Positions 11,701 through 39,273 of a stretch of 40,415 nucleotides of DNA are shown here, one piece after another. This DNA is from a virus: the IMG/VR virus record IMGVR_UViG_3300031857_000467, positions 1 through 40,415 of that record; one strand, 5' to 3'. Within the stretch, counting starts at the first letter, position 1; the number at the start of each line of letters is the position of its first letter. Under the pieces are notes generated by a model. That model did not search any database, was not told the origin of the DNA, and was given only the letters and a program-made list of their open reading frames with translations. A program made the position numbers and the translations under genes.

Positions 11701-14700
11701 ATGCGTTGGCAGAGCTTAAAGACCGCCGTAAAGACCTTGGCGATGAGTTAAGAAAACTGCGTGCTGCCAAACCATCGGTCAAAGAAGAGAATAGACTGGC
11801 CAAAGAAGTCACGCCAGAGATGGCGGAGATGCAACAACAGTTGGGCAACATTGAGCGCCAACTTAAAGGTCTGTCTGTTGAGTCCGAGAGAGGCAATATC
11901 CGCGCACAGTTGCTAAAAGCTCGTGACGACCTAAAGGCAAAAATTGCCGCTGGCACACCAGAGGAAGAAGCTGCAACAGCAACAGGCCAACGCGAACTGA
12001 CAGGTATTCAGCCCAAGCGTCTGGCTCCTACATTGCGTGAGATAACGCCCGAAGAACTGACCGAGGCACGTACTGCGTTTGTGGCTGCAGAAACTAAAGT
12101 TGAAGAACTGAAGAAAGCTGTGCGCAATACAGAGGCGTTGCAAGAGAACCCACAGTACTTCCGCGAACTGGCAACTAGGCTAAAAAACGAAGTAGACCAG
12201 TACAAGCTAGAGTCTAAAGACTTCCCCAATAGTTTTCTATTAGAGAGAGCTAAAGCAGATTACGCAGCACGCGAACAAAACGCACGCTACTTTAATATGT
12301 TGGCTGACTTGTCCGAACAAGGTCAGGCCGATTTACAAGCAGTTCAAAAAGAACTGGCGCAAGCGCAAAAAGCTTTGCCTAAAGCAGAAGCCGCGTTCCG
12401 TGACTTAGAGCGTCGCCAACGTATGCAACAGCAACAACAAGCGGATGTGGCTGGCACTACTCCCGGACAAGTGGAAGCGGAGCGCATCAAAGCAGGCCAG
12501 TCTCGTGAGTTTAGAACGCCTCAAGGCAAGACGCTTATCAAGCCTAAAGAAGCAAAAAGTTGGGACATTAAACAGCAGTCTGTTGCGCCTGTGGCCAAAG
12601 TGCCAGAAGTTGTTAAAGCACAAAAAGCCCTGTCAAGGGCAGTAGAAATTGCACGGATGTCTGGCAAAGAGCTTGTAACCGCTCGCGGCAAGTTAGCCGA
12701 GTCCGGTGTTACGCAAGAAGTACAGCAACTTCAAAAAACAGTAGCAGATATTGAGCCGTTTGTTAAAGGCACGTTTTCCGAAGAAAATGTTAAAGCTATT
12801 GACGACGAACTAGCAAAGATTGACGCAGTACTGCAAGAGCGCGGGTCTAATAAACAGAAAGCGCCGTCTCCTGTAATAGCCAAACACAAGGGGCCTCTGC
12901 CAAGAGACTATGCGGCTACTATTGATTTTGCGGAAAAAGAAGCTCGTAGCGAATACAACGCGGCTAAGAAAGTTAGCGATGCCGCACAAGTTGCGTATGA
13001 GACTGCTCGTAAAGGAATAGATAACCTGCCTTCTATGGCTTCTGGTCTTGAGTTTGGCCGCTTAGACAGTGCGATGACCCGTGCTGCAAGTGCGACGGAA
13101 AAGCTGTTGCCTAAGACACAAGCCGCAGAGCTTACGTACTTAGCGGCGCGTCGAGATAATTTGACTTTGAACAGGTTGTTGGGGCAAGACTTGCGTGAAG
13201 CATTTGTAGATGCAAGCGCTAGATTGGCCAAGGCTTTGAACAGAGAGTCACCTCTAGTCAAACAAATTGAGGAAGCTAGAGCCACTGCCGCTAAAGCCGA
13301 GAAGGCACGCGCAGAAGCGGAAGCCAAAGCTCGTGAAGAAGAGCGCAAGCTTCAAGCTGAGAGAAATGCTGGCGATGCCGAAAAACAAAAAGCACTGGAC
13401 GCTGCCAAGGCTGAGCAAGAGCGCCTTGAGAAAGCCAAGGCATCTGGCGCTGCGTACGACACACGCCGCTTTACCCGCGATACTTCTGGCCCCCAGATGA
13501 CGGCTGAGCTTAACCGCCTCAAGAAAGACTTGGCGGCGGCGGATACAAACTTGGGCAAAGCCCGAGAGAAAAACAACGTTGAGGACATTAAGAAGTATCA
13601 AGACGAATACAACCGGCTTGAGTCCAATATTGACACCATTTACGCATCGGCACCTATTATTGAGCGTGATCTAGATCAAGAGGCGGGCCCACAGCCAGAC
13701 GCTGCGGAAGGTATGCGTTTGCCTGCTCGTAAAGAAGGCCCTGTTGTTCGTAACTTGGCTGGCGCTAAGCGTATTCGTCAGTCAGGGGTAATTAAACTTA
13801 GAGCCGAGGGCCTGTCACAAGAAGCTGCAAACGCAGTGCATTTGTTTACAGTCAAAGCACGTTTGGATGGCGCTACTGATGCCAGCCGCGCTAAGTTAGA
13901 GACTGCTTACGCAGAAGCTACCGAAGGTTTAACAGACGAGCAAGTGGCTAATCAACTGGCTGAAGGTAAGCGTTTGTTAGGTCAAGGCCCCACTATTGAG
14001 ATCATTGCTGCTCGTGAGCGCTATCGTCAGTCGGTGATTGAGCTTGAGAAAGCCCAGAAAGATTTTGACGAAGCCAAGACTCCTGCAACCAAAGAGTTGG
14101 CGCAAGACGCTCTTGACCTTGCCAATCAGCGTAGCGATGCCGCAGAGGAAGCGTACAAGAATGCGCGTGATATTCGTGCGTCTAAAGCCCTTAAAGGCGG
14201 TGCGCAAGCAGAAGTTGAAGCCGCGTTGGATGCCGCTACTGCCAAGCAAGAAGCCGCTACACTGCCAGAGATTGACGAAGAAGGCCCGATCCAAGGTGCT
14301 GCAACCCAGTACACGGAGATGGATCAGGCTCAGTTGTCTGACACAGCCAAGGAAGCCATTGCAGATGGGCGCTTGCTCGATGCTGTTAATGATGTGGCTG
14401 AGAACGGCCAGACTGACTTCGTTCGTCAGAACGCCAAGAACATTGTCAACATGTTGCTTCGCACCAAGGTAGTCATTGATCCTAACTTGGTCGATGCTTA
14501 CGGCAACCCTGTACCAGCGTTTTACAACAACGTAACCAACACCGTGTCGTTTAGACCCGGAGAGCTGACAGAAGAGAACCTGATTCACGAAGTGACCCAC
14601 GCCGCATCACTACGCGGTTTGGTTATGCCTGCTGCTGATTTGACTAAAGAACAACTTAATGCACGCAATGAGTTGAACGCCATGTTCAACCAACTGAAGA

Positions 14701-17534
14701 AAGATAAGGCGCTGGTAAACGAATACGGCTTGACTAACGTAGCCGAGTTTGCCTCTGAAGTACAGTCCAACAAAGACTTCCGTGACCGCATCAACCAAAA
14801 GCCTTGGTTTGGCGGCAACATGCTGTCCCGTTTCTTCCAAGCTATTTTGCGTTTGGTGGGCTTTAAAACTGGCCAAGTCACCACGGATGTTGCGACCAAG
14901 AACATTGAAGCGCTGTACATGCCTGCGCAGAAGTTTGAAATGGTTGACCAGATTAACGCGCCATCGGTCTTTAGAACTAAAGCGCCAGCAGTTACCTCGG
15001 TCATTGTTGGCCAAGAAGCGGGTAGGGGCACATCGCTTAAAGAAAACTTGTTTGGCCTTGGTGGTCGCGTACAGTTGATTGACCGCTTGGCTGCAACCGA
15101 TGCCGCTATTGTGGCTGGTGAAGGCGCGGGTAAGTTGTCTTCTACTGAAGCTTTCCAAACGCAGTACTTCCTGCGTTTAGCCGATAACACAACGCAGACA
15201 GCCGGTCAGTTCATTACGCACGGCCCCGTGTCAATCGTGGCAGACAAGACTGCTTTGGGTACAGAGTATCGCTACCAGTCATCGACTGGCGCTAACCTTG
15301 TACAAATGACTGAACATTTGGAGGATGCTTCCAAAGCCGGTTTGGGTGCCGATGCTGAGCGCATACTGACCGTGCAGGTGGCTGGAGATCGTGCGAACGC
15401 TACGCCTAATGGCTGGGCACGCTTGTTATCTTCTGATCCTGCGGCAGCTAAAGCCGAGTACCTTAGAGACCAAGCCACATTAGCGGCAAACCCCGAAGCT
15501 AAGAAAAGCATTGACGCTGCCAAGGCGGTGTACAAACAGTACAACAACGGCCTTATAGACTTTATAGTCCAGTGCGGATTTATTTCCAAACAGGAAGGCG
15601 CGCGCCTGAAACAGACGCCGTTCATTCCGTTCTATCGTATCGAGAACAACGAGGTCAAGCTGTTTACCGACAGGGAAAGCAGCATCCGTATTGGCAACAT
15701 CAAAGAGAACCCAGACTTGCAACGCATGTTGGGCGATGAGAAAACCATTCTGCCAATCTTGACCAGCGCTGTTCAGAACACGTTCATGCTGTCCCGTGCC
15801 GGTTTGCGGAACCAAGCTACGCATAAAACGTCTGATGCGCTATACAAGGCTGGGTTTGCATCCAAGATCGGCAAGGGAAGCGGCCCCGCAGGTACTGATG
15901 TAGTTCGTTACAAAGTTGATGGCGATGATTACTTTGCTGTAATTGATTCCGACACGTTTGGCATCCCCGCCCATTTGATTGTCAAGGGCATGGAAGGTAT
16001 CAAGACCACCATCCCAGAGATCGTGCGCATGATGGGCATACCGGCTGATTGGGTGCGTAAGTTTGTGACCCGCAGTCCTGCCTACGCTATTCGTCAGTTG
16101 ATCCGTGACCCTCTCAATGCCGCTATTGTTGGTGGTGTAGATGGCGTGCCGGTACTTAACGCATTGAAGCAGTTGGCTAAAATGCGCGCTGGTCGCAGCC
16201 CTGCTGAAGACGCGTTGATGCGCGGTCTGGCTATCAGTAGCAACATTTACACGGGCGACGAGAAAGACATGCAGAGGTTCTTGCAGGACATCAGCACAGG
16301 TCGTGGTAAGTGGGACAAGATGCTTGGCATGCTAGATACTGTGGCGCTTCAAGCTGACGCGGCTACCCGCGCTACCATCTACGAAGACTCCTTGAAGAAA
16401 GGCTTGACCGAAGCGCAAGCGCAGTTCCGTGCGTTTGAGTCTCAGAACTTTAGCCGCCGTGGGTTGTCGCCAAGTATCCAGATGCTGAGCACAATGGTTC
16501 CGTTCTTTAACGCGCAGATTCAGGGCTTGGATGTTCTGTATCGTTCGTTCAAAGGCGACATGCCTTTCTCTCAGCGTTTGGAAATCCAGCGTAAGATAAA
16601 AATGCGCGGTGTCATGTTGATGGCCGGAACCTTGGCGTATGCCTTGATGATGGAGGACGACGAAGACTACCGCAAGATGCCGCCTGAAGTTAAGTATGGC
16701 AACTGGTTTGTGCGCATTCCGGGCGTCAAAGACCCACTTAAGATTCCAATTCCGTACGAGGTGGGTATCTTGTTCAAGGCGTTGCCCGAAGCTATCCTTG
16801 ATGTGGCGCGGCGTGATACCAAGGCCAAGGAAGCCATTAAAGGGTTGGGCATGCTGCTCTGGCAGTCCACTCCGGGCGTTATACCCGTGGCCGGCAAGCC
16901 GTTCATTGAAGGTGCTATTGGTGCTACACCGTTCGGCCCGATCGAGTCGCCAAGGGAAAAAGAGTTGCCACCCGCCATGCGTTACCGCGAAGAGACAACC
17001 GAAGTGGCCAAAACCTTGGGTTCGTTCACCGGAGCCGTGGGCGTGTCGCCCCTGATGATTGAGCACTTTGTGCGTAGCTACACAAGCTCATTGGGGCTGT
17101 CAGCGTTGCACATGCTAGACCCAGCCCTGCGCTCCTCGACAGAGGGCGCGAAAGCCTCAACGTCGGCCAGCAAGTTGCCGTTCGTGGGCGGCTTGTTCCA
17201 GTCAGCCGATGGCCGCTTTATCGTCGACCGCGCATACAACCGCGTGGAAGAAGTGGTGCAAGCGCAAAAGGGCTATGAGGACTTGGAAAAGCGCGGCAAG
17301 AGAGCCGAGGCCAAGGCATGGGCGCAGGAGTATGCGTCGCTGTTGGCTCAAGCTGATATGGCTGGAAGCTTCAAGAAAACTATGGGGGAGATGTTCACCG
17401 ATGAACGTACGATACGCGCTGACTCTAGGCTCTCAACAGAGCGTAAAGACGAGCTAATCGCACGCATCAAAGCGGCGCAGAATCGAGAGGCCGAGGCTTT
17501 CTATCGGGCAACCGAAAGAAGAAAACCCCAGTAA
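8760..17534 (+). CDS. Giant polyvalent ejection protein with HExxH metallopeptidase and LPD38-like region
   Basis: At 2924 residues this is by far the largest gene. The N-terminus carries a short PDGRTVEFPDSVSKEKAAEI motif at residues 8-27 and Gly/Ala hydrophobic segments near 95-150. Residues about 280-1830 are almost continuous charged coiled coil. An HEVTH zinc-protease motif lies at 1943-1947, followed by VAEFASE with Glu1996 and Glu2000 as candidate third ligands, as in metallopeptidase-like domains of phage polyvalent proteins. The C-terminal region has AIRQLIRDP near 2441 and VPFFNAQIQGLDVLYRSF around 2580-2597, matching my memory of the large polyvalent-protein-associated domain LPD38. 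Proteins of this class are packaged in the virion and enter the host with DNA. A hairpin follows the stop. The protease call rests on motifs only. Confidence 0.8.
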   Translation: MSYTVALPDGRTVEFPDSVSKEKAAEILREQLGIGGSPEEGFVPAVKAGISGLKSAGAALAGRTGVMDTERAKQIMAEEEAYQQRTFKPTEKGWSGAPLTKFSELLGGSLPYVAAPLIAGGAAAVGGAPALVASGLGALASGAQFTGQFLKRQTEEGTPLEQTNLAAAAGAGTVAGALDLLSFKMFPAIRGIFSAAGKELSQDAAEQIAKQGMAKMLGDYTKATGKAIGAESTTEVAQQFLERLQAGLKLDDEQARNEYWESLIGGAVLGGALAPAGRFIERGRIKTQQAEAGRAEQAKQVQAQEAEKQRLEQEKQAYRQTPEYLDEIQTRYADVQKQEADLLARLKGKPAEGDLAAAADKKEARDQIRELRKSDEYTGTIEEYRSARKAIEERDQEATRKTAFAEANKVPGAQQDLFGELPAAKDSSPVGQLRTLDSQIKGLDAQLADAKKTGDQAQIQALTNQQFDLQKQFQSMAPTPTAYAAMQTTVNKQIENLRTKLQAATSTEDMERLVGSIKQNKEALAELEQLKPFVAEAPKQTDVASRDVEIKDLRKKVTRYQELGDDEAIAKLLPRLKELEAVPTLMEGDQFRNVPTDDLFAAEIDDGAKEARETRESVEAEIEKLREMSERVKTTSPVTQAYRDRELAKARSLLSLFEESEQDWNKLKQDPANTEYRDDRDKLKETLEKDIKALEKRDIPEGTVMPTREMFELNVKRKALKNLNRRMEAADRFKDTTPFAQNIIDERTDENVASLLDYYLPKLKPAQEGFAKQTNRAAMAKEAKELRAKVHDGLIDLYDAVKIKDGLAIRKTKDQFFFDAERLVNINRILGNGKALEREAKIGLREQLLEVTDDIQSTVTNLTRSRVQLRTLDREIADIGRPSSDEQAQALSAMEKRRDTLALNVKKLQAKTGWEDKSDAIIDRYSDVIADERELVRGQRQLPIERVEGAANRIDEVTRELRLVNERVQKAGRPTDEAKMNALAELKDRRKDLGDELRKLRAAKPSVKEENRLAKEVTPEMAEMQQQLGNIERQLKGLSVESERGNIRAQLLKARDDLKAKIAAGTPEEEAATATGQRELTGIQPKRLAPTLREITPEELTEARTAFVAAETKVEELKKAVRNTEALQENPQYFRELATRLKNEVDQYKLESKDFPNSFLLERAKADYAAREQNARYFNMLADLSEQGQADLQAVQKELAQAQKALPKAEAAFRDLERRQRMQQQQQADVAGTTPGQVEAERIKAGQSREFRTPQGKTLIKPKEAKSWDIKQQSVAPVAKVPEVVKAQKALSRAVEIARMSGKELVTARGKLAESGVTQEVQQLQKTVADIEPFVKGTFSEENVKAIDDELAKIDAVLQERGSNKQKAPSPVIAKHKGPLPRDYAATIDFAEKEARSEYNAAKKVSDAAQVAYETARKGIDNLPSMASGLEFGRLDSAMTRAASATEKLLPKTQAAELTYLAARRDNLTLNRLLGQDLREAFVDASARLAKALNRESPLVKQIEEARATAAKAEKARAEAEAKAREEERKLQAERNAGDAEKQKALDAAKAEQERLEKAKASGAAYDTRRFTRDTSGPQMTAELNRLKKDLAAADTNLGKAREKNNVEDIKKYQDEYNRLESNIDTIYASAPIIERDLDQEAGPQPDAAEGMRLPARKEGPVVRNLAGAKRIRQSGVIKLRAEGLSQEAANAVHLFTVKARLDGATDASRAKLETAYAEATEGLTDEQVANQLAEGKRLLGQGPTIEIIAARERYRQSVIELEKAQKDFDEAKTPATKELAQDALDLANQRSDAAEEAYKNARDIRASKALKGGAQAEVEAALDAATAKQEAATLPEIDEEGPIQGAATQYTEMDQAQLSDTAKEAIADGRLLDAVNDVAENGQTDFVRQNAKNIVNMLLRTKVVIDPNLVDAYGNPVPAFYNNVTNTVSFRPGELTEENLIHEVTHAASLRGLVMPAADLTKEQLNARNELNAMFNQLKKDKALVNEYGLTNVAEFASEVQSNKDFRDRINQKPWFGGNMLSRFFQAILRLVGFKTGQVTTDVATKNIEALYMPAQKFEMVDQINAPSVFRTKAPAVTSVIVGQEAGRGTSLKENLFGLGGRVQLIDRLAATDAAIVAGEGAGKLSSTEAFQTQYFLRLADNTTQTAGQFITHGPVSIVADKTALGTEYRYQSSTGANLVQMTEHLEDASKAGLGADAERILTVQVAGDRANATPNGWARLLSSDPAAAKAEYLRDQATLAANPEAKKSIDAAKAVYKQYNNGLIDFIVQCGFISKQEGARLKQTPFIPFYRIENNEVKLFTDRESSIRIGNIKENPDLQRMLGDEKTILPILTSAVQNTFMLSRAGLRNQATHKTSDALYKAGFASKIGKGSGPAGTDVVRYKVDGDDYFAVIDSDTFGIPAHLIVKGMEGIKTTIPEIVRMMGIPADWVRKFVTRSPAYAIRQLIRDPLNAAIVGGVDGVPVLNALKQLAKMRAGRSPAEDALMRGLAISSNIYTGDEKDMQRFLQDISTGRGKWDKMLGMLDTVALQADAATRATIYEDSLKKGLTEAQAQFRAFESQNFSRRGLSPSIQMLSTMVPFFNAQIQGLDVLYRSFKGDMPFSQRLEIQRKIKMRGVMLMAGTLAYALMMEDDEDYRKMPPEVKYGNWFVRIPGVKDPLKIPIPYEVGILFKALPEAILDVARRDTKAKEAIKGLGMLLWQSTPGVIPVAGKPFIEGAIGATPFGPIESPREKELPPAMRYREETTEVAKTLGSFTGAVGVSPLMIEHFVRSYTSSLGLSALHMLDPALRSSTEGAKASTSASKLPFVGGLFQSADGRFIVDRAYNRVEEVVQAQKGYEDLEKRGKRAEAKAWAQEYASLLAQADMAGSFKKTMGEMFTDERTIRADSRLSTERKDELIARIKAAQNREAEAFYRATERRKPQ

Positions 17535-17656: not shown

Positions 17657-20551
17657 TCAGTCGTCTCCCAAGGGAACCGGATTAAGGAGAGTTTCATCGA
17701 CTTCGTCCATCTTACGTCTAACACGCATCACAGTAACACGCATTGGGGGCCCCTTGGTTTTGGCGGTCATGTTCTTCTTCAAGTACTCGATTGGGAATTG
17801 ATCCTCAAGCTGGCGCTTGAATGAAGCGTAACCGAAACTTGTTGAAGCGCAATACGATTTGAGCAGTTGTTCCTCAATGAAGTAGTCAACGTAACCGGCA
17901 GTGATGCCGTGCTCCACGCGCCCAAGAATCTTGTTGCGTGTGATCGTCTGGTCAATGACTTGGCCGCTACCGAGTTCTGCCATCAAGCCGCCAGTGCTAG
18001 GACGCACAACGACAAAGCTGCCATAACTCTCACGGGTGTACGCATTCAGTATGTCTTCAGCAGTGCGGACACTGTTCTTCATACTGGCGCGCATAGTCTG
18101 CACTACCTTCTTAAAAGCGTTCAAGACAGGGCGCAAAGGGATCTCCACAATGCCAGCAGCCTTGAATACATTACGTGCCTGCACTGCGGTTCCGATGCCT
18201 GCCATCCAGAAGCGCTCATCGTTGGTAGCGTTGAACTCTGTGTACATGGCGGCAACCGACTCACGCACAGATGTAGGGAACTCATCAGCATGCTCCACCA
18301 TGTACTCAACTTGCTTGTAGCCAGCCACGCCATAGTTGTGTTGCAAAGACTTGATGATCTCAATCTCATGGGGCGCCCATGACAGTTCTTCTTCGAAGGT
18401 AAACTCAAGCAGACGGCGAAGCTCGCCCTCAGATGAGTGGTCGCGTCCACCAGTTAGGTAGTCCACAACGTGCGTGTTGGATGACATCAGGCATGCAGTC
18501 ATCCATGTGGAGAGGTTCAGGCGTTCCTTGTTGGAGCCGGACTCCATACGTTCCTTGCCCCGACCCTCAGTCATATCCAAGAGAAACTCAGGCAACCACT
18601 CAGGGGCGGCTCTGTTCTTGGCGGTGATCTCATCCGTGATAAGCGGATGGCTGTTGAGCAAGCCAAGGCGTTGCTGCATAGCGACAGGCGATGTGCTCTT
18701 GCCTGTGCGGTAGTGCGTTGGGTGTCCCCATACTGAAGCGGCAGCTTCAAGAGCCAACGTCTTGCCTGTACCAGATTCGGTACTAGCGCAGTGGTATGTC
18801 ATCCCGTAGATGCCTGTAAAGCGCATGAATGGTGCGCCAGCACCGGCAAGGATTACGGCTATGTGCCCCCACATCTTCTTGGCGATCAACATATTTATGA
18901 AGTCGCGCCAAGCCTCTATGGTTCCCTTGGGTTCGGTGTTAACTGTGATGTTCTCAAGCCCCGGCATCGGGACTTTGACTGGAGGTTTGCCCTTGCTAAA
19001 GATACGACCCGCATACACGTACGTGTTGTCGGCCTGCCATCCGTAGCTGTCGGGAACCTTGATTGCTGGTTTGTTGGTGCTAGCTTCTTCCACACATGCC
19101 CTTATATATTCAGATAGGTTTTTATCGTTGCCTTGACCAAATGCCGCCACAATGTTTTGACTAGCCAAGGCTTTCACTGTTTCGTCTTTGCTAACCACCG
19201 CTCTTTGAGGCATGGTTATGTTCACTGCACCATCAGGCTTGAGCGCTATCAGGTGTACTGTGTGATCCCCGTTGCTGTTGAGGATGTCAACAACAAACAG
19301 TTCGTATGGCAATAGCATGACCTGCTTCTTGGACTTAGCCCCGTCATCGTCTTCTACTGTGCGCTCCATGAACGTGCCGCCGTTGGCTCCATAGGAGTAC
19401 CCGCGTGGCGGTGTTGGGCGCATTACCTTGATGACTTCTTTTTCCGTGACGGGGCTGTCACTCGAAAGCTTCACCTCTATTTCTTTCTCCTCGACCTCAA
19501 CCGCCAACTCACGACCTAGGATCAATGGGTTGGTGATCTTGCCCCAGTGCGTGCATGTTGGGCACACGCCGGGGTTTTCGCTATCCATCTTGATACATGG
19601 GTAGGGGCCTTTGATACTCTGAAGCTTTTGGTTCATGCGCTCAGGCTCGTACGGGTGCATCTTGCTTAGCCACACCGCCGCCTTGTTGCCGTCCTCACAG
19701 ACCTTAGTCCATGACAACAAGCCCCGCCATATCGGTTCCATGCCTTCTTCGGTCGCGTGTTCAACGTAGTGCGCAAGCTGGCCGCACCCCCTCGAATTTT
19801 GCGTAGCCAACCAAATTGGTTTGAACTTGGTTATGCTGTTCTCAAAGAGTTTGACACTGGTTGCGGATGGGGCAGAAGCCCCAGACGGACGGGTTCCAGC
19901 CAAGTCTAGCTTGGGCACAGCTTGCGTCTCGTAGACTGAGCCTGCTAGTTTTTCCCTGATAAGAGAAGACAACCCCTCGAAGCTAAACACATCGCCCTCA
20001 GTCAGCATGCGCACAGGGCGCGGCGTCGCGTATTTCTTCTTGAAGTTGGTGGTCTCGGGCACACGCAGAACTCGGGCGGCATCAGCCGTCACGGTCATAT
20101 CAATCGCCAAGCCTTCCTGTTTGCACAGGCGCTTGAAGTTCTCGGCCACAGGCTTCCAAGACTCAATAGGCACAGCCTCAGTCAGTGGCCAGTAGCAGTG
20201 CAAGCCGCCACCAGATGCCACCACATAGGGCGTGCCTAGGGTATCTAGCCCTGTCTTGTCCAAGAACGCATGAAGTGCAAGCGCGGCGTCTTTCTTTGAA
20301 ACGTAGCCGTCCATGTCGATGAACAGGGACTTCACGTACCTAGCGTTTACGGCCAGACGATTGTCTTCGTCACCGAAAGTAGCCAAGGCAAAGTAAATGT
20401 CGAACTTGCTGTCATGCCAACGTTTGATTGGCGCTGTGGTCTCTTCCAGAGTATGCACAAAGGCATGCTCCTTCTTTGTAAGTTCTGCTACGCAATACCG
20501 ACCAAATTCTGGCGGTGGCAGAACAACCGCTAAAAACTCAAGCGGAGTCAT
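17657..20551 (-). CDS. AEP-type primase fused to a DUF927-like helicase
   Basis: This 964-residue replication protein has an N-terminal archaeo-eukaryotic primase domain with the three expected motifs: FIDMDGY (Asp79, Asp81), SGGGLHCYW with His118, and IDMTVTADAARVLRVP with Asp151. A Cys-rich stretch follows near residues 310-355 (PYPCIKMD, then CPTC) and may bind zinc. The C-terminal half is a P-loop ATPase with Walker A ESGTGKT (Lys597) and Walker B-like LITDE (Asp640-Glu641), in the arrangement of DUF927 helicases (EAAASVWGHP after the P-loop). Such fusions synthesise primers and unwind DNA at the phage fork. The ATG is preceded by AAGGAA. It is the last gene of the leftward replication block. 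Confidence 0.85.
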   Translation of the reverse strand: MTPLEFLAVVLPPPEFGRYCVAELTKKEHAFVHTLEETTAPIKRWHDSKFDIYFALATFGDEDNRLAVNARYVKSLFIDMDGYVSKKDAALALHAFLDKTGLDTLGTPYVVASGGGLHCYWPLTEAVPIESWKPVAENFKRLCKQEGLAIDMTVTADAARVLRVPETTNFKKKYATPRPVRMLTEGDVFSFEGLSSLIREKLAGSVYETQAVPKLDLAGTRPSGASAPSATSVKLFENSITKFKPIWLATQNSRGCGQLAHYVEHATEEGMEPIWRGLLSWTKVCEDGNKAAVWLSKMHPYEPERMNQKLQSIKGPYPCIKMDSENPGVCPTCTHWGKITNPLILGRELAVEVEEKEIEVKLSSDSPVTEKEVIKVMRPTPPRGYSYGANGGTFMERTVEDDDGAKSKKQVMLLPYELFVVDILNSNGDHTVHLIALKPDGAVNITMPQRAVVSKDETVKALASQNIVAAFGQGNDKNLSEYIRACVEEASTNKPAIKVPDSYGWQADNTYVYAGRIFSKGKPPVKVPMPGLENITVNTEPKGTIEAWRDFINMLIAKKMWGHIAVILAGAGAPFMRFTGIYGMTYHCASTESGTGKTLALEAAASVWGHPTHYRTGKSTSPVAMQQRLGLLNSHPLITDEITAKNRAAPEWLPEFLLDMTEGRGKERMESGSNKERLNLSTWMTACLMSSNTHVVDYLTGGRDHSSEGELRRLLEFTFEEELSWAPHEIEIIKSLQHNYGVAGYKQVEYMVEHADEFPTSVRESVAAMYTEFNATNDERFWMAGIGTAVQARNVFKAAGIVEIPLRPVLNAFKKVVQTMRASMKNSVRTAEDILNAYTRESYGSFVVVRPSTGGLMAELGSGQVIDQTITRNKILGRVEHGITAGYVDYFIEEQLLKSYCASTSFGYASFKRQLEDQFPIEYLKKNMTAKTKGPPMRVTVMRVRRKMDEVDETLLNPVPLGDD

Positions 20552-20566: not shown

Positions 20567-20749
20567 TTAGAAAAGGTCGAGTTGGCGTGGGTCTGTGCTT
20601 ACTGGGCGCTCCATGATTGGGTAACCCGCAATGCGACTGAGCAGTTCCATTTGCCAGTTCTTTGGCAAGCCCTCGGGCTTGTGTACAAAGTCTTCAGCGA
20701 ACCGAATCAGTTCTTGCGTGGTGAGGGATCTAGGTTGTATTCCGTGCAT
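20567..20749 (-). CDS. Small hypothetical protein, 60 residues
   Basis: The product (MHGIQPRSLTTQELIRFAED at its start, ending DPRQLDLF) has no motif I recognise. I chose the ATG at 20749 rather than the in-frame ATG at 20761 because GGAG at 20756-20759 is spaced 6 bases before it. The gene still overlaps the end of the upstream HTH gene by 43 bases in another frame, a longer overlap than elsewhere in the block. It sits directly upstream of the primase-helicase, with 15 bases between. The coding call rests on the ribosome site, the position in the operon and the use of the whole gap. Confidence 0.6.
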   Translation of the reverse strand: MHGIQPRSLTTQELIRFAEDFVHKPEGLPKNWQMELLSRIAGYPIMERPVSTDPRQLDLF

Positions 20750-21000
20750 ATTTTTCTCCATGCCTCATCTGCTGTGCGTGAGGTCTTCATTATGTGAGTT
20801 AAGAATTCGACGCGATTACGATAGGCCACAAACACTTCCGTGCCTGTAAACCAGTTGTAAACAGTCTGTCGAGAGACGCCAAGCGCATAGGCAATCTTCG
20901 TGACCGGAAAGTCAAGATGGATTGCCCAACGCCCAAGCTGGTTGCCCAGAGACTTGGGAGTCTTTGCTACTTCGTCAATGATTTTTTGTGAATAGGCCAT
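20707..21000 (-). CDS. Helix-turn-helix DNA-binding protein
   Basis: The 97-residue protein has a clear helix-turn-helix at residues 33-52 (VTKIAYALGVSRQTVYNWFT), a short helical N-terminus and a helical C-terminus (EAWRKICTEYNLDPSP). The fold suggests a transcriptional regulator or an origin-binding protein. It is the only compact HTH protein in the window, and so the first candidate to bind the TGTC-N8-GACA sites at 22439, 31189 and 38524; that link is inference. The start codon has no Shine-Dalgarno sequence. Instead a very stable hairpin with a UUCG loop ends 8 bases before the ATG, so expression may depend on coupling or be kept low. Confidence 0.75.
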   Translation of the reverse strand: MAYSQKIIDEVAKTPKSLGNQLGRWAIHLDFPVTKIAYALGVSRQTVYNWFTGTEVFVAYRNRVEFLTHIMKTSRTADEAWRKICTEYNLDPSPRKN

Positions 21001-30309: not shown

Positions 30310-30951
30310 TCAGCCCCCAAACATCTGCTTCAAGTGCACATACAACTCATGCGCCTGATACACAGTCATGTCTGACAAAATGTCATGTGGTGTTTTATTA
30401 CGCACAAGCTTTGTGAGAAATTCGCGTTGTGTCGTGTGAAGTAATGGCTCAGACGCAACGGGCGTGGGTGTGTTCTCCAGCTTCTCACGTAGCAACGCAC
30501 CGATGCCTGTCACGGCTTTCTTCTCGTACTTGCGCTTGGGTGGTGCTACTGGGGCTTCCATCTTCCTGAGTGCTTTGAGCGACTTGATTGGGCGGTACTC
30601 GGGGATGTCTGCGTAGTAGGCGCTATTGGTTTCATGGATCATGTTATTACGGCGCATCTGTGCGATGAGGCTCGATGTTGACCCACCCGCAAACCCTTGA
30701 TGCTCTAGCGCATCGATGATCTCCTTGCGAGTCGAGCCGGGGTTGTTCTTGATGTAATTGAAAGTTACACGGGAGATGTTGTTGGTTATGCCGAAGGTTT
30801 TTTTCACGGGAATTCCCTGAGTTGGTTGTGGGGTAGGTGGTACAGACACTGGTTGCACAGAGGGAGAATGGGGAAAGGTTTCCCCATCGTCGTCCCATTC
30901 CTGTAAGGTTGTTCTAAGTGCGGTCTTGAGCGCAGTTTGCATGTCAGGCAT
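30310..30951 (-). CDS. Winged-helix-like DNA-binding protein (putative)
   Basis: The 213-residue protein has a short acidic N-terminus, a Pro-rich linker (residues 28-48), then a likely winged-helix domain at about 52-118 (VTFNYIKNNPGSTRKEIIDA, then GSTSSLIAQMRRNNMIHETN). This is the pattern of a helix-turn-helix followed by a wing. The C-terminal third is basic, then helical. It could be a regulator of phage genes. A copy of the GGGGAAA-NN-TTTCCCC palindrome is embedded in the coding sequence at 30870-30885, encoding part of the linker (GETFPHS). The gene overlaps the preceding membrane-protein gene by 8 bases. Confidence 0.65.
   Translation of the reverse strand: MPDMQTALKTALRTTLQEWDDDGETFPHSPSVQPVSVPPTPQPTQGIPVKKTFGITNNISRVTFNYIKNNPGSTRKEIIDALEHQGFAGGSTSSLIAQMRRNNMIHETNSAYYADIPEYRPIKSLKALRKMEAPVAPPKRKYEKKAVTGIGALLREKLENTPTPVASEPLLHTTQREFLTKLVRNKTPHDILSDMTVYQAHELYVHLKQMFGG
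30870..30885. repeat. GGGGAAA-NN-TTTCCCC palindrome, copy 1 (inside a gene)
   Basis: GGGGAAAGGTTTCCCC falls inside the coding sequence of the winged-helix-like protein, in its Pro-rich linker. It is the only copy of the family inside a gene and the farthest left. Confidence 0.8.
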
Positions 30952-32963: not shown

Positions 32964-35060
32964 TTAAACAGGTTGTGCTTCAGACACTGTGTATGAAGAC
33001 TGCGCAAGTGAAGCAGCAAACCCCTCGTTCATAAGAACCCACAAATCATTGACACGCATATAGACAACATCGCCACTGCTGATGGTGTCTAGGTCACCCC
33101 CGTAGGGGAAGTACGCATACTCAGAGCCTGCGTAGGTAGCGAAGCGGAAGTACAGACCTTGACGAGTGACCCATGACCTGATAGCCTCAGCCTCGTTGTC
33201 GTAGGGTATGTGCACTGGGTAGTCTCTGTCATGCCTGTCCTCTGTATGCTCGGGTGTCCACGGCGCAGGGGGCACAGCGTCAGTGCAAGTGTCCATCGCT
33301 GGCGCTATGACTGTCGGTGTGGATGTGTGTATTTGACGCACGCCATACCACTTGACTAGCGCAGGGTACTGACCCGCCACAGTCTTGAGCCACTTGACAA
33401 ACGATGTGCCGTTGAGATCACGCCACGATGCGACACGGCAGAACATGACAGACGCATGAGTGAACTCGATCTGTGCAAGCAGACGTTCCTTCTTGAGTGA
33501 TGCACGGAAGATGCGTAGCTCGACTGTGTTGTACTTGCCGTTGTAGCTGTTGTCCATGCTAAGACCAAGACGCTGAGCCTCACGACCACCGAGGTTGCAC
33601 ATGTTGACCATGCGATAGCGCTCACCAGACTTACCCTTGACCGCCTTCTTGGGGTTGGTAAGGATCGACTGATGCTCTGCCGCACAGTAGCTACGAGCTT
33701 GGTCATCGACAGATGGATGACGACCTGCAATCTTACGAATGAAGTCGACGTTGGCACTGCTGTTGATGAACATCAAGAACTTACCCAGCGTCAACTGCGT
33801 GAAGGCACGAGAGTCGATGTGTACGTGCATACCGCACTTGCCTGTGTTCCATGCACGATAGGCTGGGTCGATGATCCAGTTCTTGAACTTGTCGATGTGA
33901 AGTGCAAGACCTTGCGGTGAAGTCACAACCTCGAAGCCATTGTGCGGTAGCGAGCCGTCATGCTTGATGATGCAGTATGTGGATCCAAGACGGCTACGCA
34001 CAGACTCAGCAGCTTCGTTGCAGTCATTGTCACCCGAGGTCATCTCAAGCTCGATGCCTAGCGTGAACTCACCGAAGTGCGAAGACGTGATGCCAGAGGG
34101 ATAGTCAAGAACACGAAGCACATTGGTAGAGTACGACATGATCGGCTGATCGCTGTCGTCTTCATCATCGTCATCCTCGTTGTCGTCATCCTCGTCACGA
34201 TCATAAGAGTAGTAGGCATCACGAGACTCTGAGTAGTACGCATCATCACGAGGCCAGTACTCGTTCTCATCCTCAACAAACACAGCGTTGTCGTCGAAGC
34301 ACGAGTCGCACCATGTGTCGTTACGCACCTCGTGTGTGTTGTCGCTGTCCTCGTAATGACCACAGTCGCAGTGCGTAATGCCCATGTCCCCCATACCCTC
34401 GATGGCAGTGAACGCATTCTCGATGTGACTGCCAGCCTCGCTGTAACGACCAGACAACTCAAAGAACGCAGAGCGAAGCTCATCGTTGGTGATGGACTCA
34501 TCGCCTGCCTTGGCACGAGCAACAAGCCGTCCGAAGTCTGCGTAATGCTTGCGAGCAATCTTGAAGTAGTCCTTGCTGTGCTCGTAGTACCAACTGTCCT
34601 TGAACCTAGCGCTAGGTATAGGAGGTGACTGGTCTAAGGTAGGGTCATTCTTCTTGGCATAAGCCTCAACGACTTTGTCGACACGAGTAGACAAAAGACT
34701 GCGAGCAAGCCGTGGCAGATCCGCAACGATTGTGGGTGTCAACAACCTGCGCATCATCTGATGCAGATCGTAGCGATCACGACTCTCGACAACAGCCATC
34801 CTGTACGTGATGTGCGATGGTGCAAAAGCTCCCTCACCCATGACACGATAGCGTGAGGTACGAGTCCACGCACACAGGTTCTCTAATGTAACGAGATCGA
34901 GAGGCGACTGACCTGCATCCATGTGCTTCACAGTATCCATGACAAGACGCCTACGGGATGCGTTGTACACCATGTAGCGTTTGTTGAGGGATACGATGTA
35001 GATCGTCTGCTCGAGTGAGTCAATGTAATCTTCCATCACGAATCTAGTTATCTGAAACAT
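32964..35060 (-). CDS. Amidoligase (COOH-NH2 ligase) with N-terminal zinc-binding and acidic regions
   Basis: The 698-residue protein carries a glutamine-synthetase-fold amidoligase domain at about 325-560. It shows TLGIELEMT (Glu337, Glu339), KHDGSLPHNGFEVVTSP (Asp368, Glu377), CGMHVHID (His412, His414) and NTVELRIFR (Glu514, Arg516). This family joins carboxyl and amino groups in peptides using ATP. Upstream lies a Cys group (HCDCGH with Cys231/Cys233 and WCDSC with Cys251/Cys254), likely a zinc site, then Tyr/Asp repeats (DDAYYSESRDAYYS) and an Asp/Glu tract to about residue 315. The first 200 residues are helical and unassigned. Known amidoligase neighbourhoods often pair it with an amidotransferase, as here. 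The substrate is unknown. Confidence 0.85.
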   Translation of the reverse strand: MFQITRFVMEDYIDSLEQTIYIVSLNKRYMVYNASRRRLVMDTVKHMDAGQSPLDLVTLENLCAWTRTSRYRVMGEGAFAPSHITYRMAVVESRDRYDLHQMMRRLLTPTIVADLPRLARSLLSTRVDKVVEAYAKKNDPTLDQSPPIPSARFKDSWYYEHSKDYFKIARKHYADFGRLVARAKAGDESITNDELRSAFFELSGRYSEAGSHIENAFTAIEGMGDMGITHCDCGHYEDSDNTHEVRNDTWCDSCFDDNAVFVEDENEYWPRDDAYYSESRDAYYSYDRDEDDDNEDDDDEDDSDQPIMSYSTNVLRVLDYPSGITSSHFGEFTLGIELEMTSGDNDCNEAAESVRSRLGSTYCIIKHDGSLPHNGFEVVTSPQGLALHIDKFKNWIIDPAYRAWNTGKCGMHVHIDSRAFTQLTLGKFLMFINSSANVDFIRKIAGRHPSVDDQARSYCAAEHQSILTNPKKAVKGKSGERYRMVNMCNLGGREAQRLGLSMDNSYNGKYNTVELRIFRASLKKERLLAQIEFTHASVMFCRVASWRDLNGTSFVKWLKTVAGQYPALVKWYGVRQIHTSTPTVIAPAMDTCTDAVPPAPWTPEHTEDRHDRDYPVHIPYDNEAEAIRSWVTRQGLYFRFATYAGSEYAYFPYGGDLDTISSGDVVYMRVNDLWVLMNEGFAASLAQSSYTVSEAQPV

Positions 35061-36297: not shown

Positions 36298-36367
36298 TTC
36301 ATTTCTCCTTGATCGGGCAGTTTGAGGATGGTCATCGGCGTTGCCCAAGTGCCGAGACCGAGGGAAT

Positions 36368-36383
36368 GGGGAAAGTTTTCCCC
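36368..36383. repeat. GGGGAAA-NN-TTTCCCC palindrome, copy 4
   Basis: GGGGAAAGTTTTCCCC lies in the gap between the genes starting at 36297 and ending at 36410. The AAT and GTT flanks are as in copies 2 and 3; the central pair is GT. Confidence 0.85.
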
Positions 36384-36409
36384 GTTGTGAGAGCAGACAC
36401 TGGTCGTGC

Positions 36410-37105
36410 CTACTCTCCCAAATCTAAGGTGTTCCATGTTGCGGGTACTACGTCATGTGGTTGCATAGCGTCAATAATCTTGAGAGCTTTCTTTATGCGT
36501 CTCATCTTGTCTTCTCGCTCGTCGGTTGGTGCGACTATGTGTTTGCGCTCGAGCGTATCCATCTCTTTGAGCGTAGCCTTCAATAATCTTAGCTTTGCCT
36601 TGGCGTGCTGATCGAGCAGCATTGTGCGTTGGAAGGGTAGTTTGCGCTTAGCCTTCGCCTTGTGCGGTAGGGACATGAAGGCGTTGTGTATGGGTTCTTT
36701 GATTCGGTGCGGTATCCAATCAGTCCAGTGCTCGCCCTCGTTGGGCAGGTTCTTGTCTTTGGCTAGTTGCATGGGCGTTTGCTCAAGCTTGCGTGATGGA
36801 TGTGCAAAGCGGTTCAATAGTTTCTCCATCACGGCTATGTACGCATCGAACACCTCAACACGCTCTTCATCATCGAGATCGTAGGCACGCCCAACCTTGG
36901 CACTGTTGAGTTCATAGCGTAGCGGTTTGAGTACGTTGTCCCATGCAAGCTTGCGCTGATGGCGTGTGATCTTGTCGACACGCATCTTTTCCTTCATCTG
37001 CGTGACTGCGTCCTTGATGTGCGTGATCTCCGCAGGGTGCAGTTTGCGCTTCAATAATCTTTGATGAAGCTCGTTTGGCGTGAGGTTGAGGTATGTTTCG
37101 TACAT
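36410..37105 (-). CDS. Basic hypothetical protein, 231 residues, carrying iterons
   Basis: I start this at the ATG at 37105, since GGA at the end of AAAGGA lies 9 bases upstream and longer versions run into the non-coding region. The product (MYETYLNLTPNELHQRLLKR at the start) is helical and rich in Lys and Arg, with no motif I know. The gene contains three copies of the 9-mer TCAATAATC (36471, 36580, 37051), in two reading frames, so the repeat is not kept for its protein sense. A fourth copy fills the space between the ribosome site and the ATG. The protein could bind these sites, as many iteron-binding replication proteins are encoded beside their sites; this is speculation. Confidence 0.65.
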   Translation of the reverse strand: MYETYLNLTPNELHQRLLKRKLHPAEITHIKDAVTQMKEKMRVDKITRHQRKLAWDNVLKPLRYELNSAKVGRAYDLDDEERVEVFDAYIAVMEKLLNRFAHPSRKLEQTPMQLAKDKNLPNEGEHWTDWIPHRIKEPIHNAFMSLPHKAKAKRKLPFQRTMLLDQHAKAKLRLLKATLKEMDTLERKHIVAPTDEREDKMRRIKKALKIIDAMQPHDVVPATWNTLDLGE

Positions 37106-37503
37106 GATTATTGATCCTTTCAAAGTACAGGTGGACATTTTACCCCGAATCTGTCCTGTGTATATCGTAGCGGACTATTCGGTAGACACCCGCTAGACCG
37201 CATGGATACTCGCTTGCTCGGTAAATGTGTCACGCTATCTACCTTTTTGTGGGAGAGCACTTGGGCTTGTCTTTTAAAAGAAGTCCAAGCAAAAGAAAAA
37301 GAGCTCACCCCCATAAATATACTTCTATATATATATATATATATTAAAAAGATAGATAGATTGCCACTTTTTTGAGCCACGCTAATATCCATGCGGGTTG
37401 CGAGGTGTCTACCTGATCGTCCAGTACGCAATACACATGGATATCGTGAAAAAACAAGATTATTGACGTCAATAATCATAGTGATGGGGAAAGCTTTCCC
37501 CAT
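37106..37503. other. Non-coding AT-rich gap, candidate replication origin
   Basis: About 400 bases without a convincing gene. The gap holds one iteron at 37106, a (TA)9 run at 37326-37344 in an AT-rich stretch, the perfect palindrome GATTATTGACGTCAATAATC at 37458-37477 made of two facing iterons, and a GGGGAAAGCTTTCCCC palindrome at 37486-37501. Read leftward, the 20-base palindrome is followed by TTGTTTTTT, so it could also act as a terminator for the gene at 37504. Iterons next to an easily melted tract are typical of origins, hence the call; it is inference. Confidence 0.5.
37486..37501. repeat. GGGGAAA-NN-TTTCCCC palindrome, copy 5
   Basis: GGGGAAAGCTTTCCCC, a perfect palindrome, ends 2 bases from the stop of the gene at 37504-37725 and lies 8 bases from the 20-base iteron palindrome. 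Confidence 0.85.
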
Positions 37504-37725
37504 TCAAGAGAACAGGGGCAGTTGTGTGGGCTGTTTGCCTATCCATTCGAGTGCTGCTTCATCGGTGCTGAACACACGCCCTCTCTCGGCTAGGTTCTTG
37601 CTGAATACATAGACAACGTAGTTGCTACCGCCATTGGGGTAGTGGTATTGCAAGTGGTACTCACGTGCGCCGATTTGCACGATGCCTACTTCTTTGGTGC
37701 GGTATTGGTTGAATAGTTGGTACAT
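37504..37725 (-). CDS. Small hypothetical protein, 73 residues
   Basis: Starts at the ATG at 37725, 6 bases after AAGGAG; a longer frame upstream covers the repeats and is unlikely to be coding. The product (MYQLFNQYRTKEVGIVQIGA, then YHLQYHYPNGGSNYVVYVFS) is a compact beta-rich fold with Tyr and Val strands. It is unrecognised. An iteron lies directly before its ribosome site, so its expression may respond to whatever binds the iterons. Confidence 0.65.
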   Translation of the reverse strand: MYQLFNQYRTKEVGIVQIGAREYHLQYHYPNGGSNYVVYVFSKNLAERGRVFSTDEAALEWIGKQPTQLPLFS

Positions 37726-37787
37726 GATGGACTCCTTAAGATTATTGAAAGGTTGCGTGTGAACGCATTGGACAAGAAATGAAACAA

Positions 37788-37808
37788 CGCAAGAGCCCCG
37801 CCCTTGCG
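37788..37808 (-). terminator. Possible weak terminator
   Basis: CGCAAG and CTTGCG pair around a 9-base loop in the gap between two leftward genes. Read leftward, TTGTTTCATTTC follows. The stem is short, so this is tentative. Confidence 0.35.
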
Positions 37809-37823
37809 CTGATCTGGAAGAAC

Positions 37824-37839
37824 GGGGAAACTTTTCCCC
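37824..37839. repeat. GGGGAAA-NN-TTTCCCC palindrome, copy 6
   Basis: GGGGAAACTTTTCCCC lies 7 bases past the stop of the gene at 37847-38260, next to an iteron at 37845. The central pair is CT. Confidence 0.85.
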
Positions 37840-37846
37840 ATTATGA

Positions 37847-38260
37847 TTATTGAAACTGAACAGCATCACGCAACTTAGTCAACAAAGCGTTGAACTCATC
37901 ACGTGTTAGCCCTGCGTCAATAATCTCTGAGGTAATGTTGCTCAGTAACTTCCTAGGAACTGCGACTGCCTCCTTGCTACCGCTACTGCTTGCCTTGCCA
38001 CAGATGCCAACGACAAGATCATAGAGATCACGCTTGGCGTTCTCATAGTTCTCTGCACTCGATTCGAACACCTTGCTACCCTTAGCCTTGCCCTCGCCAT
38101 CGACTAGCTTCACACTCCAGAACTTGCCCACAAGTGGCATGAGTGTTGCCCGCACAGTCTCACGAGACTTGCGCTTGAGTTCCTTCGTGAGATCAACGAT
38201 GGCTTGGGCTTTGGATACTTTGGACTTGCAATACAGATTGACATTGGTTTGAACTGACAT
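37847..38260 (-). CDS. Hypothetical protein, 137 residues, first gene of the leftward block
   Basis: The product (MSVQTNVNLYCKSKVSKAQA at the start) is basic and mostly helical, with a beta-rich centre (MPLVGKFWSVKLVDGEGKAK) and a C-terminal helical pair (DEFNALLTKLRDAV). No known motif is seen. AGGAG precedes the ATG. It is the first gene downstream of the divergent control region, so it is likely the first protein made from the leftward promoter; immediate-early regulatory or host-takeover roles would fit. Its stop codon is part of an iteron (CAATAATC). Confidence 0.65.
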   Translation of the reverse strand: MSVQTNVNLYCKSKVSKAQAIVDLTKELKRKSRETVRATLMPLVGKFWSVKLVDGEGKAKGSKVFESSAENYENAKRDLYDLVVGICGKASSSGSKEAVAVPRKLLSNITSEIIDAGLTRDEFNALLTKLRDAVQFQ

Positions 38261-38279
38261 GACTATCTCCTAGTTGGAT

Positions 38280-38295
38280 GGGGAAACCTTTCCCC
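38280..38295. repeat. GGGGAAA-NN-TTTCCCC palindrome, copy 7
   Basis: GGGGAAACCTTTCCCC lies 19 bases upstream of the first leftward gene, just before its ribosome site. The central pair is CC. Confidence 0.85.
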
Positions 38296-38498
38296 GTTGT
38301 TGGGAAGCACTATTGCTAATCAACACTTTCAGTATCCATATGGGGGGTTTGGGATAGGTCATTTTGGGTATAGCGAAACCCCACCCATCCCCCACCCCCC
38401 GTGTAGAAAGCGGAGTCCCGTAGCGCACATGAACACTGTTCCTCACCCGCAAAGCCAATTTTTAAAATTCCTGACCACAAACACCCCACCCCCTAAAA

Positions 38499-38546
38499 AT
38501 TTTAAAAAATTCCCAAGGTACCATGTCAAACGTTGGACATTACAAT
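38499..38546. promoter_or_regulatory. Divergent promoters sharing a TGTC-N8-GACA operator
   Basis: The palindrome TGTCAAACGTTGGACA is at 38524-38539. Leftward, its edge forms a perfect -35 TTGACA (38524-38529), with TTTAAA (38501-38506) 17 bases on, or TAAAAT 19 bases on. Rightward, TACAAT (38541-38546) follows the palindrome as a -10, but I see no good -35. A bound repressor would block both directions. Confidence 0.6.
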
Positions 38547-38555
38547 ATAAAAAAA

Positions 38556-38580
38556 TGCCCCAACCTTGCGAGCCGGGGCA
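38556..38580 (-). terminator. Leftward-facing intrinsic terminator
   Basis: TGCCCC and GGGGCA pair around a 13-base loop. On the leftward strand the hairpin is followed by a run of seven T. It faces away from the terminase genes, so it would stop antisense transcripts coming from that operon before the leftward promoter. On the + strand it forms a hairpin in the terminase leader. Confidence 0.65.
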
Positions 38581-38613
38581 AAAGATGGCAACTGAAACCA
38601 TCAAGGAGAAGCA

Positions 38614-39273
38614 ATGACTTGCGCCATCACCGAAAAGAAGTGTACACTAACACCAACGAGGCAACAAGTACGACGCCAGTACTACCCCTACGCAATGCTA
38701 GAACATTTGATTAACGGCGAGTTTCATCCAGAGGTGGTCGACGCCACTGCGGAAATCCTGTCTTTTGAAAAGGCAGAGCCAGCCACGACCATTGACGCCA
38801 AAGTCAAAACCGCTGAGTGGCTGAAGAATTTAGAGCTTGAGGACGAAGAGATCGAGTCCAAGGCAGAACAAGAATCTGCCCGTAAGTCTTTTGCAAGTCT
38901 CGTGACAGGCCAGCCTGTGGGGAATACGCAACAAGCGCTAGCTAACTTAAAGACTCCTGCTGCAGTGCAGCATTTGGTTGGGATGCTTACTGCCTACGAT
39001 TGGGCGTTTGTCGAGCAAGCCAAGGAGCTACGGGGTTTTGCTGTGGCTAAAATATTAGATGAAGTCGAACATCCAGACGCCAGAATCCGGCTCAAGGCGC
39101 TAGACATGTTGGGCAAGGTCACGGAAGTAGCGCTGTTCACCGAACGGATTGAGGTCAAGAAAACCCAGATGTCGGACATAGAGCTAGAGACGCGTATTAA
39201 AGAGAAGCTCAACAGGTTCATGGGTGTGATCGACGTTGTAGACGTGACCGAAGAAAAGACCGATGAAGCCTGA
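38614..39273 (+). CDS. terS: Probable terminase small subunit
   Basis: The 219-residue protein lies just upstream of the large terminase and overlaps it by 11 bases, the usual place for the DNA-recognition subunit. It is helical. Residues about 125-195 (FVEQAKELRGFAVAKILDEV, then RLKALDMLGKVTEVALFTER) form a helical core that could assemble the ring, and the C-terminus (SDIELETRIKEKLNRF) is acidic and helical, as expected for the part that contacts the motor. A typical N-terminal helix-turn-helix is not clear. AAGGAG lies 5 bases before the ATG. The call rests on position and helical layout more than on a definite family match. Confidence 0.7.
   Translation: MTCAITEKKCTLTPTRQQVRRQYYPYAMLEHLINGEFHPEVVDATAEILSFEKAEPATTIDAKVKTAEWLKNLELEDEEIESKAEQESARKSFASLVTGQPVGNTQQALANLKTPAAVQHLVGMLTAYDWAFVEQAKELRGFAVAKILDEVEHPDARIRLKALDMLGKVTEVALFTERIEVKKTQMSDIELETRIKEKLNRFMGVIDVVDVTEEKTDEA

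Follow-up and report, generated by a model that had tools for sequence, protein, structure and literature searches.

We analysed a window of 40,415 bases, which is the whole of the virus record IMGVR_UViG_3300031857_000467 and comes from a tailed phage, and found near its right end a compact cluster of short DNA sites arranged around a large inverted repeat. The nonanucleotide (9-mer) TCAATAATC occurs there in nine exact copies between positions 36471 and 37925 (1.45 kb). An exact-match search of the full window returned no copy outside the cluster, and allowing one mismatch added five sites, all of them elsewhere. Dinucleotide shuffling predicts 0.15 copies, and none of 100 shuffles reached nine or more, which bears out the claim of the original prediction that this density lies far above chance. 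The cluster extends over two leftward genes to which no function is assigned. One encodes a protein of 231 amino acids (36410-37105, minus strand) and holds three of the sites; the other encodes a protein of 137 amino acids (37847-38260, minus strand) and is the first gene of the leftward block. An open reading frame for 73 amino acids (37504-37725) lies between them.

The nine copies are placed in and around these genes in quite different ways. Copies 1 to 3, all on the plus strand, lie inside the 231-residue gene: the first (36471-36479) encodes Lys-Ile-Ile-Asp on the minus strand, the second (36580-36588) and the third (37051-37059), the latter close to the N-terminus, Leu-Leu-Lys. Copy 4 (37106-37114, minus strand) is inserted between the ribosome-binding site and the ATG of the same gene and forms the right outer end, in gene sense, of the inverted repeat. 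Copies 5 (37458-37466, minus strand) and 6 (37469-37477, plus strand) are the inner and outer halves of a 20-bp palindrome, copy 6 being also the left outer end of the repeat. Copy 7 (37740-37748, minus strand) directly precedes the ribosome-binding site of the 73-residue reading frame, copy 8 (37845-37853, minus strand) overlaps the final codons and stop codon of the 137-residue gene, and copy 9 (37917-37925, plus strand) encodes Glu-Ile-Ile-Asp within that gene, so that the word is indeed read in several frames, as had been proposed. Five copies are on the plus and four on the minus strand, so that four run with the leftward genes and five against them, and their start-to-start spacing varies from 11 to 471 nt. 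Multiple copies in a confined region are a trait of iteron-type origins, but the copies are dispersed and of mixed orientation instead of forming a regular tandem in one direction, and the term iteron, used in the original prediction, thus fits only loosely.

The site itself is slightly longer than the 9-mer. Our alignment took 154 copies from 25 chosen loci and condensed them to 50 flank-distinct representatives. As the selection required an exact match to the 9-mer, its nine bases are constant by construction, and only the two added positions count as a result: TCAATAATC is followed by W (T in 80%, A in 20%, C or G never) and then mostly by Y (T in 60%, C in 34%). A second half-site is absent from the 50 representatives, and the element is therefore an asymmetric 11-mer, TCAATAATC-W-Y or TCAATAATCWY, to which all nine window copies conform.

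Conservation of the sites in related phages, a check suggested together with the original prediction, is extensive. A search with the 231-residue protein gave 33 loci, 31 of them with copies; the two without, L040 and L041, are only 25-27% identical. When the 33 relative contigs were searched whole, copies were present in 12 of 12 and 19 of 21, in a single cluster each. A profile search with the 231-residue gene yielded 101 relatives, of which 80 were kept, representing 70 distinct loci. All 70 carry two to nine copies, 416 in total in the counted region, while 200 shuffled words gave a total of 0.66 on average and 12 at most in the same regions. In the DNA examined around these loci, no copy lies further out than about -1,700 or +700 relative to the start of the 231-residue gene (about 2.4 kb). 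Among 24 loci of the 137-residue protein, 13 have copies. Of 22 long contigs collected through a 97-residue protein encoded at 20707-21000, eight carry TCAATAATC; only three of the 22 have a match to the 231-residue protein, and all three bear the cluster.

Codon usage shows that this constancy is more than a by-product of the encoded protein. In 24 distinct 231-residue genes, with the columns of the sites taken from L009 (a locus identical to the window over 36300-38300), ATT accounts for 44 of 49 Ile codons in site columns versus 27 of 296 elsewhere in the gene, and TTA for 33 of 86 Leu codons versus 42 of 453. The sites thus use codons that are rare in the remainder of the gene, which argues that selection acts on the DNA; together with the copies in all 70 distinct loci, this gives good support to the earlier claim of selection on the nucleic acid. 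Synonymous identity of conserved columns follows the same trend, with 0.74 at sites versus 0.53 elsewhere (9 versus 119 columns; one-sided p = 0.013, uncorrected for relatedness). The first in-gene site is an exception, its two scorable columns having a synonymous identity of 0.36 and 0.25; among the aligned genes this site is lost in L020, L023-L027, L029-L033 and L037. The copy at the start codon is lost in L024-L027, which carry another one slightly upstream at the same arm end, and L018 has both. Orientation is almost invariant by position: 121 of 122 copies inside the 231-residue gene in the 70 loci are antisense, and all 63 copies at most 45 nt before its start are in gene sense. This difference may reflect limits set by the protein code, in which Ile-Ile and Leu-Leu are easily placed.

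The second component of the locus, not described in the original prediction, is an imperfect inverted repeat of 376 bp (37104-37479) with the 9-mer at both outer ends and arms of 134-145 nt. In gene sense, the left arm comprises 134 nt (37346-37479; L009 5627-5760) and the right arm 145 nt (37104-37248; L009 5858-6002), separated by a spacer of 97 nt (37249-37345) with an AT-rich core. The predicted TA run is present in this core as (TA)9 (37326-37343), the only run of at least four TA units in the window and a candidate unwinding element; in five records examined, such runs are confined to the cluster. The AT-rich core corresponds to the adjacent AT-rich region of iteron origins. The reported 20-base palindrome also exists (37458-37477), but it is not central, since it sits at one outer end of the much larger repeat. 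Across the group, sites stand on either side of the AT core in 66 of the 67 loci whose flanks are complete. Of the 70 distinct loci, 66 have the 9-mer at the left end of the repeat, 62 at the right end and 58 at both. A sliding scan of 19 group members placed the strongest inverted repeat here in 13 (the window, G002, G003, G005, L038, L040, L060-L063 and L066-L068), with scores of 40-92 versus medians of 16-18. The repeat scores at least 30 in 61 of the 70 distinct loci, and gentler scoring makes imperfect repeats visible in L037, L033 and L073. As folded single-stranded DNA, the region exceeds its shuffles in stability by a wide margin (z -9.2). L040 and L068, which are without the 9-mer, also have a long inverted repeat here, with arm sequences that are largely different yet still pair.

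The two arms change together. When the structure of one member was applied to an alignment of 18 sequences, 73.3% of cells paired and 46 of 103 pairs contained two-sided changes. These changes amount to 157 cells, compared with 76.4 in shuffled and at most 57 in slid versions, controls that only partly remove relatedness; further pair types in this alignment were no more frequent than in shuffles (80 versus 79.7). Own arms scored higher than crossed arms (mean 56.1 versus 38.9; 25 of 26 sequences, L011 being skipped), but because 19 of the 25 sequences have at least one better-scoring crossed partner, we do not rely on this comparison and prefer the test of two-sided changes. One other analysis left out the sequence L016. 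Promoter-like pairs in both arms were considered and discarded (six in the region versus 3.0 expected, standard deviation 1.9; the arm motif, judged by eye, is not kept in other lineages). Outside the group, the examined stretches of the phages Rollin, HTVC027P and HTVC023P hold no comparable repeat. Phage DSL-LC04 has a 45-nt inverted repeat with a 131-nt spacer (L077 5469-5688; score 52) upstream of its annotated small terminase gene, possibly an analogous element, although the context differs.

Packaging genes adjoin the cluster. To its right lie the gene at 38614-39273, which probably encodes the small terminase (a weak match to PHROG 51, E = 0.0024), and the gene of the large terminase, which runs from 39263 to the contig end, where it stays open after 384 codons. 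Among the products of the leftward block are a family A DNA polymerase, an SNF2-type helicase, a PD-(D/E)XK nuclease and a 964-residue primase-helicase that carries a DUF927 domain. Some relatives measure about 60 kb, among them G003, whose terminal 225 bases repeat its own start (224 of 225 identical) and whose genome is therefore probably complete; about a third of the genome thus probably lies outside the window. In G003 the cluster sits between leftward terminase genes and rightward early genes and extends into the 231-residue gene. We consider the group not previously described, and none of the named phages in the collection that we searched is a close relative: they gave no DNA match to the cluster region and no protein match for the 231-, 137- or 97-residue proteins, and matches of 24-29% for the primase-helicase and up to 51% for the large terminase. 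A genome collection returned 98 pattern matches and no relative, a weak test in which only two short peptide patterns were used, and a full-text literature search with the 9-mer brought up no phage-origin title among the matches listed. In IMG/VR, 476 stretches encode relatives of the 97-residue protein.

We propose the 1.5-kb region as the group's origin of replication, an explanation that fits the layout best and that we hold to be somewhat more probable than its negation. This part of the original interpretation therefore stands as the best-supported reading, while the interpretation as a whole is supported in part. An origin is favoured because the sites flank the AT core, because most members scanned have a covarying dyad at this place, and because the phage encodes an initiator-type helicase. 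The 11-mer would be bound by a phage initiator, and initiators bound on both sides could draw the arms together. The (TA)9 core would then melt, the arms perhaps forming hairpins on the single strands thus laid bare, and loading of helicase and primase would give forks for the family A polymerase. Binding, melting, loading and the actual start of replication go beyond the layout and are what we infer from it. The proposal points to a likely replication start in a well-represented group of uncultured IMG/VR phages and supplies a small set of DNA sites together with three named candidate proteins.

The first of these candidates, and the candidate initiator, is the primase-helicase (17657-20551, minus strand; DUF927, E = 1e-20), which weakly matches a solved 'pathogenicity island protein' (8tch, E = 0.002). 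According to PMC7581432, the DUF927 protein Cch is related to the Rep helicase of the staphylococcal pathogenicity island (SaPI) SaPIbov1, and the C-terminal domain of SaPI Rep recognises an iteron origin. The DUF927 domain connects the phage primase-helicase with the initiator helicases of staphylococcal islands. A loader could be the second candidate, such as the adjacently encoded 97-residue protein (20707-21000, minus strand), modelled with high confidence as a compact helical fold with a helix-turn-helix (predicted local distance difference test, pLDDT, 93.6); its Pfam hits were below the cut-off, and its fold search gave nothing reliable (best E 0.53). The third is the product of the 231-residue gene, predicted to be all-helical (pLDDT 91.1), with no match in Pfam, PHROGs or NCBIfam and none at E <= 0.001 in a fold search of the PDB (best E 1.1). 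In G002, G003 and G006 the 97-residue protein has 93-100% identity, against 57-89% for the 231-residue protein, and in G040, which is without TCAATAATC, the 97-residue protein has 50%. The primase-helicase follows the same trend (80-98% versus 53%), and the trend thus singles out no one protein.

A bolder version of the proposal is that the region represents a phage origin of a class of its own, in which a constant asymmetric 11-mer, kept even in genes despite rare codons, caps and flanks a giant quasi-palindrome with jointly drifting arms. In such an origin, pairing would outweigh sequence, the melted hairpin would be part of initiator recognition, and the pairing core would predate the word, as suggested by L040 and L068, which keep the long inverted repeat without it. 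We regard this extension as tentative and, taken as a whole, rather doubtful. The group offers a natural data set for asking whether DUF927-type initiators read sequence, hairpin shape, or both.

Several known origins share parts of this architecture. The ori of phage lambda within gene O and ori1/crr of satellite phage P4 place initiator sites in or beside early genes together with an AT-rich part, as in the phage region described here; to our knowledge, neither has a long inverted repeat with covarying arms. The iteron origins of mobile elements (SaPI Rep, SCCmec Cch2 and Vibrio cholerae PLE RepA; for the PLE origin, see PMC7145576) likewise combine short repeated sites with a noncoding region in or beside which they lie. 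In the SaPI type, the element encodes an initiator helicase of the DUF927 or D5 type, which has its counterpart in the gene at 17657-20551. The origin of SaPI-type elements, however, lies directly downstream of the helicase gene, whereas the phage cluster is about 16 kb away, and the phage copies differ from those of mobile elements in being dispersed over 1.5 kb, partly inside genes, and joined to a large inverted repeat. In herpes simplex virus OriS, the boxes bound by the origin-binding protein are inverted and enclose an AT-rich spacer, and a hairpin forms once the origin is unwound (PMC12543377). The likeness is one of layout only, and the phage element differs in its arms of about 134 nt and its up to nine boxes.

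Some observations weigh against an origin. Detrended GC skew, an origin check suggested earlier, was uninformative, its minimum not pointing to the cluster in relatives: it lies at 24 kb in G003, whose cluster spans 20.9-22.3 kb, at 1.5 kb in G002, where the cluster is at 13.2-14.8 kb, and at 2.0 kb in G040. The candidate initiator gene is far from the sites, unlike in SaPIs, and the spacing and orientation of the copies are unlike those of tandem iterons. The word is not universal, being missing from 11 of the 24 loci of the 137-residue protein (L065-L075, more distant, 34-44% identical) and from L040, L041 and G040. Furthermore, the eight of the 22 long contigs that carry TCAATAATC each have one copy outside the cluster. 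Seven of these eight fall, by offset, at one place, the 3' end of the primase-helicase gene, and the eighth (G057) elsewhere. We read the lone copy directly in L247 at about 521 and in L248 at about 300 (G048 and G064), where it codes for EII[DE]ADE, and placed it from offsets in G049, G062, G065, G066 and G068. This position is the other end of the early block, and the window has no copy there. The repeat is weak (score 27) in L037, L073 and L074, and the sliding scan did not pick it out in G006, L041 or L072, the last of which stops shortly past the 137-residue gene. Finally, the covariation of the arms may reflect selection on pairing or, alternatively, arm-to-arm copying by template switching, a process known from the literature (PMC8604942).

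Operator arrays and packaging sites are the main rivals to an origin. The original prediction had likened the sites to the stoperators of mycobacteriophage L5, which are also short, asymmetric (as is TCAATAATCWY), numerous and partly intergenic. L5-type stoperators are described in PMC9283540 and PMC6550527 as genome-wide, oriented with transcription and lineage-specific. We rejected this analogy on spread, as copies are confined to about 2.4 kb and form a single cluster in the window as in every one of the 31 copy-bearing contigs, and on orientation, which is independent of transcription both in the window (four with, five against) and in the fixed antisense and sense placement of in-gene and pre-start copies; moreover, the word is identical in all lineages that have it. 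A more general operator array, in which a phage repressor, most likely the 97-residue Cro/CI-like helix-turn-helix protein, would act on the sites and the 20-bp palindrome to control the leftward early genes, seems unlikely to us. The sites head the leftward block and often stand right before a start codon, the 63 copies at the start of the 231-residue gene all being in gene sense. The strong conservation of the 97-residue protein in G002, G003 and G006 and its divergence in the wordless G040 would also suit a repressor, and L5-type repressors bind asymmetric sites as monomers (PMC9283540). Yet other replication proteins share this conservation trend, three copies lie within a gene, nearly all in-gene copies across the loci are antisense, and an operator array could do without an AT core and a covarying repeat of 376 bp. 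The word also stays constant while intergenic palindromes of the same region change between lineages.

Repeats bound by the small terminase are typical of cosB or pac sites. With the small terminase gene only 0.7 kb away, a packaging function therefore keeps some weight: the small terminase, encoded 0.7-2 kb from the sites, would bind the repeats to start DNA packaging, and both terminase genes adjoin the cluster. We consider this improbable, as the sites lie on both sides of the AT core and reach into early genes, and packaging would call for no AT-rich core with covarying arms. The covarying arms could also belong to a structured RNA, the 376-nt repeat being a folded transcript of the early operon; both RNA strands fold far more stably than shuffles (z -8.1 and -9.0). 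In loci with a repeat score of at least 45 and less than 80% identity to any already kept (26 representative loci), however, gene-sense mismatches comprise 106 G-T and 243 A-C, the reverse of what an RNA would lead us to expect. The strand opposite the genes would show a G-U excess over A-C of 243 to 106, but no gene of this stretch was read as running that way, and base composition alone explains the A-C number (ratio 1.06). As the 9-mer also occurs on both strands, and no Rfam family reached the cut-off in positions 36300-38620, which gave four sub-threshold matches only, we judge a structured RNA very improbable. Least of all do we expect a partition or other plasmid-like maintenance site, which clustered asymmetric sites beside an origin-like core would resemble in outline; among 27 distinct window proteins scanned against Pfam or PHROGs, none had a ParA- or integrase-like match.

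A second family of repeats shares this part of the genome. GGGGAAANNTTTCCCC stands for seven near-perfect palindromes of 16 nt each (30870, 32931, 35089, 36368, 37486, 37824 and 38280), six outside genes as read and one inside the open reading frame 30310-30951. Counterpart palindromes occupy the same region in other lineages, CGATTCAGWCTGAATCG in G003, GGGGACANNTGTCCCC in G006 and GATTGCGACANNTGTCGCAATC in G040. These lineage-specific palindromes are better operator candidates than TCAATAATC. In the clade L066-L071, GATTGCGAC was considered as a replacement iteron and dropped; its occurrences are in fact halves of an intergenic palindrome, the counterpart of GGGGAAANNTTTCCCC in the window. 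Elsewhere in the window, a 698-residue protein (32964-35060) contains a putative amidoligase domain (Pfam Amidoligase_2, E = 1.2e-06), and the rightward structural block encodes a giant protein of 2,924 residues (8760-17534), whose version in G002 is 81% identical over its length.

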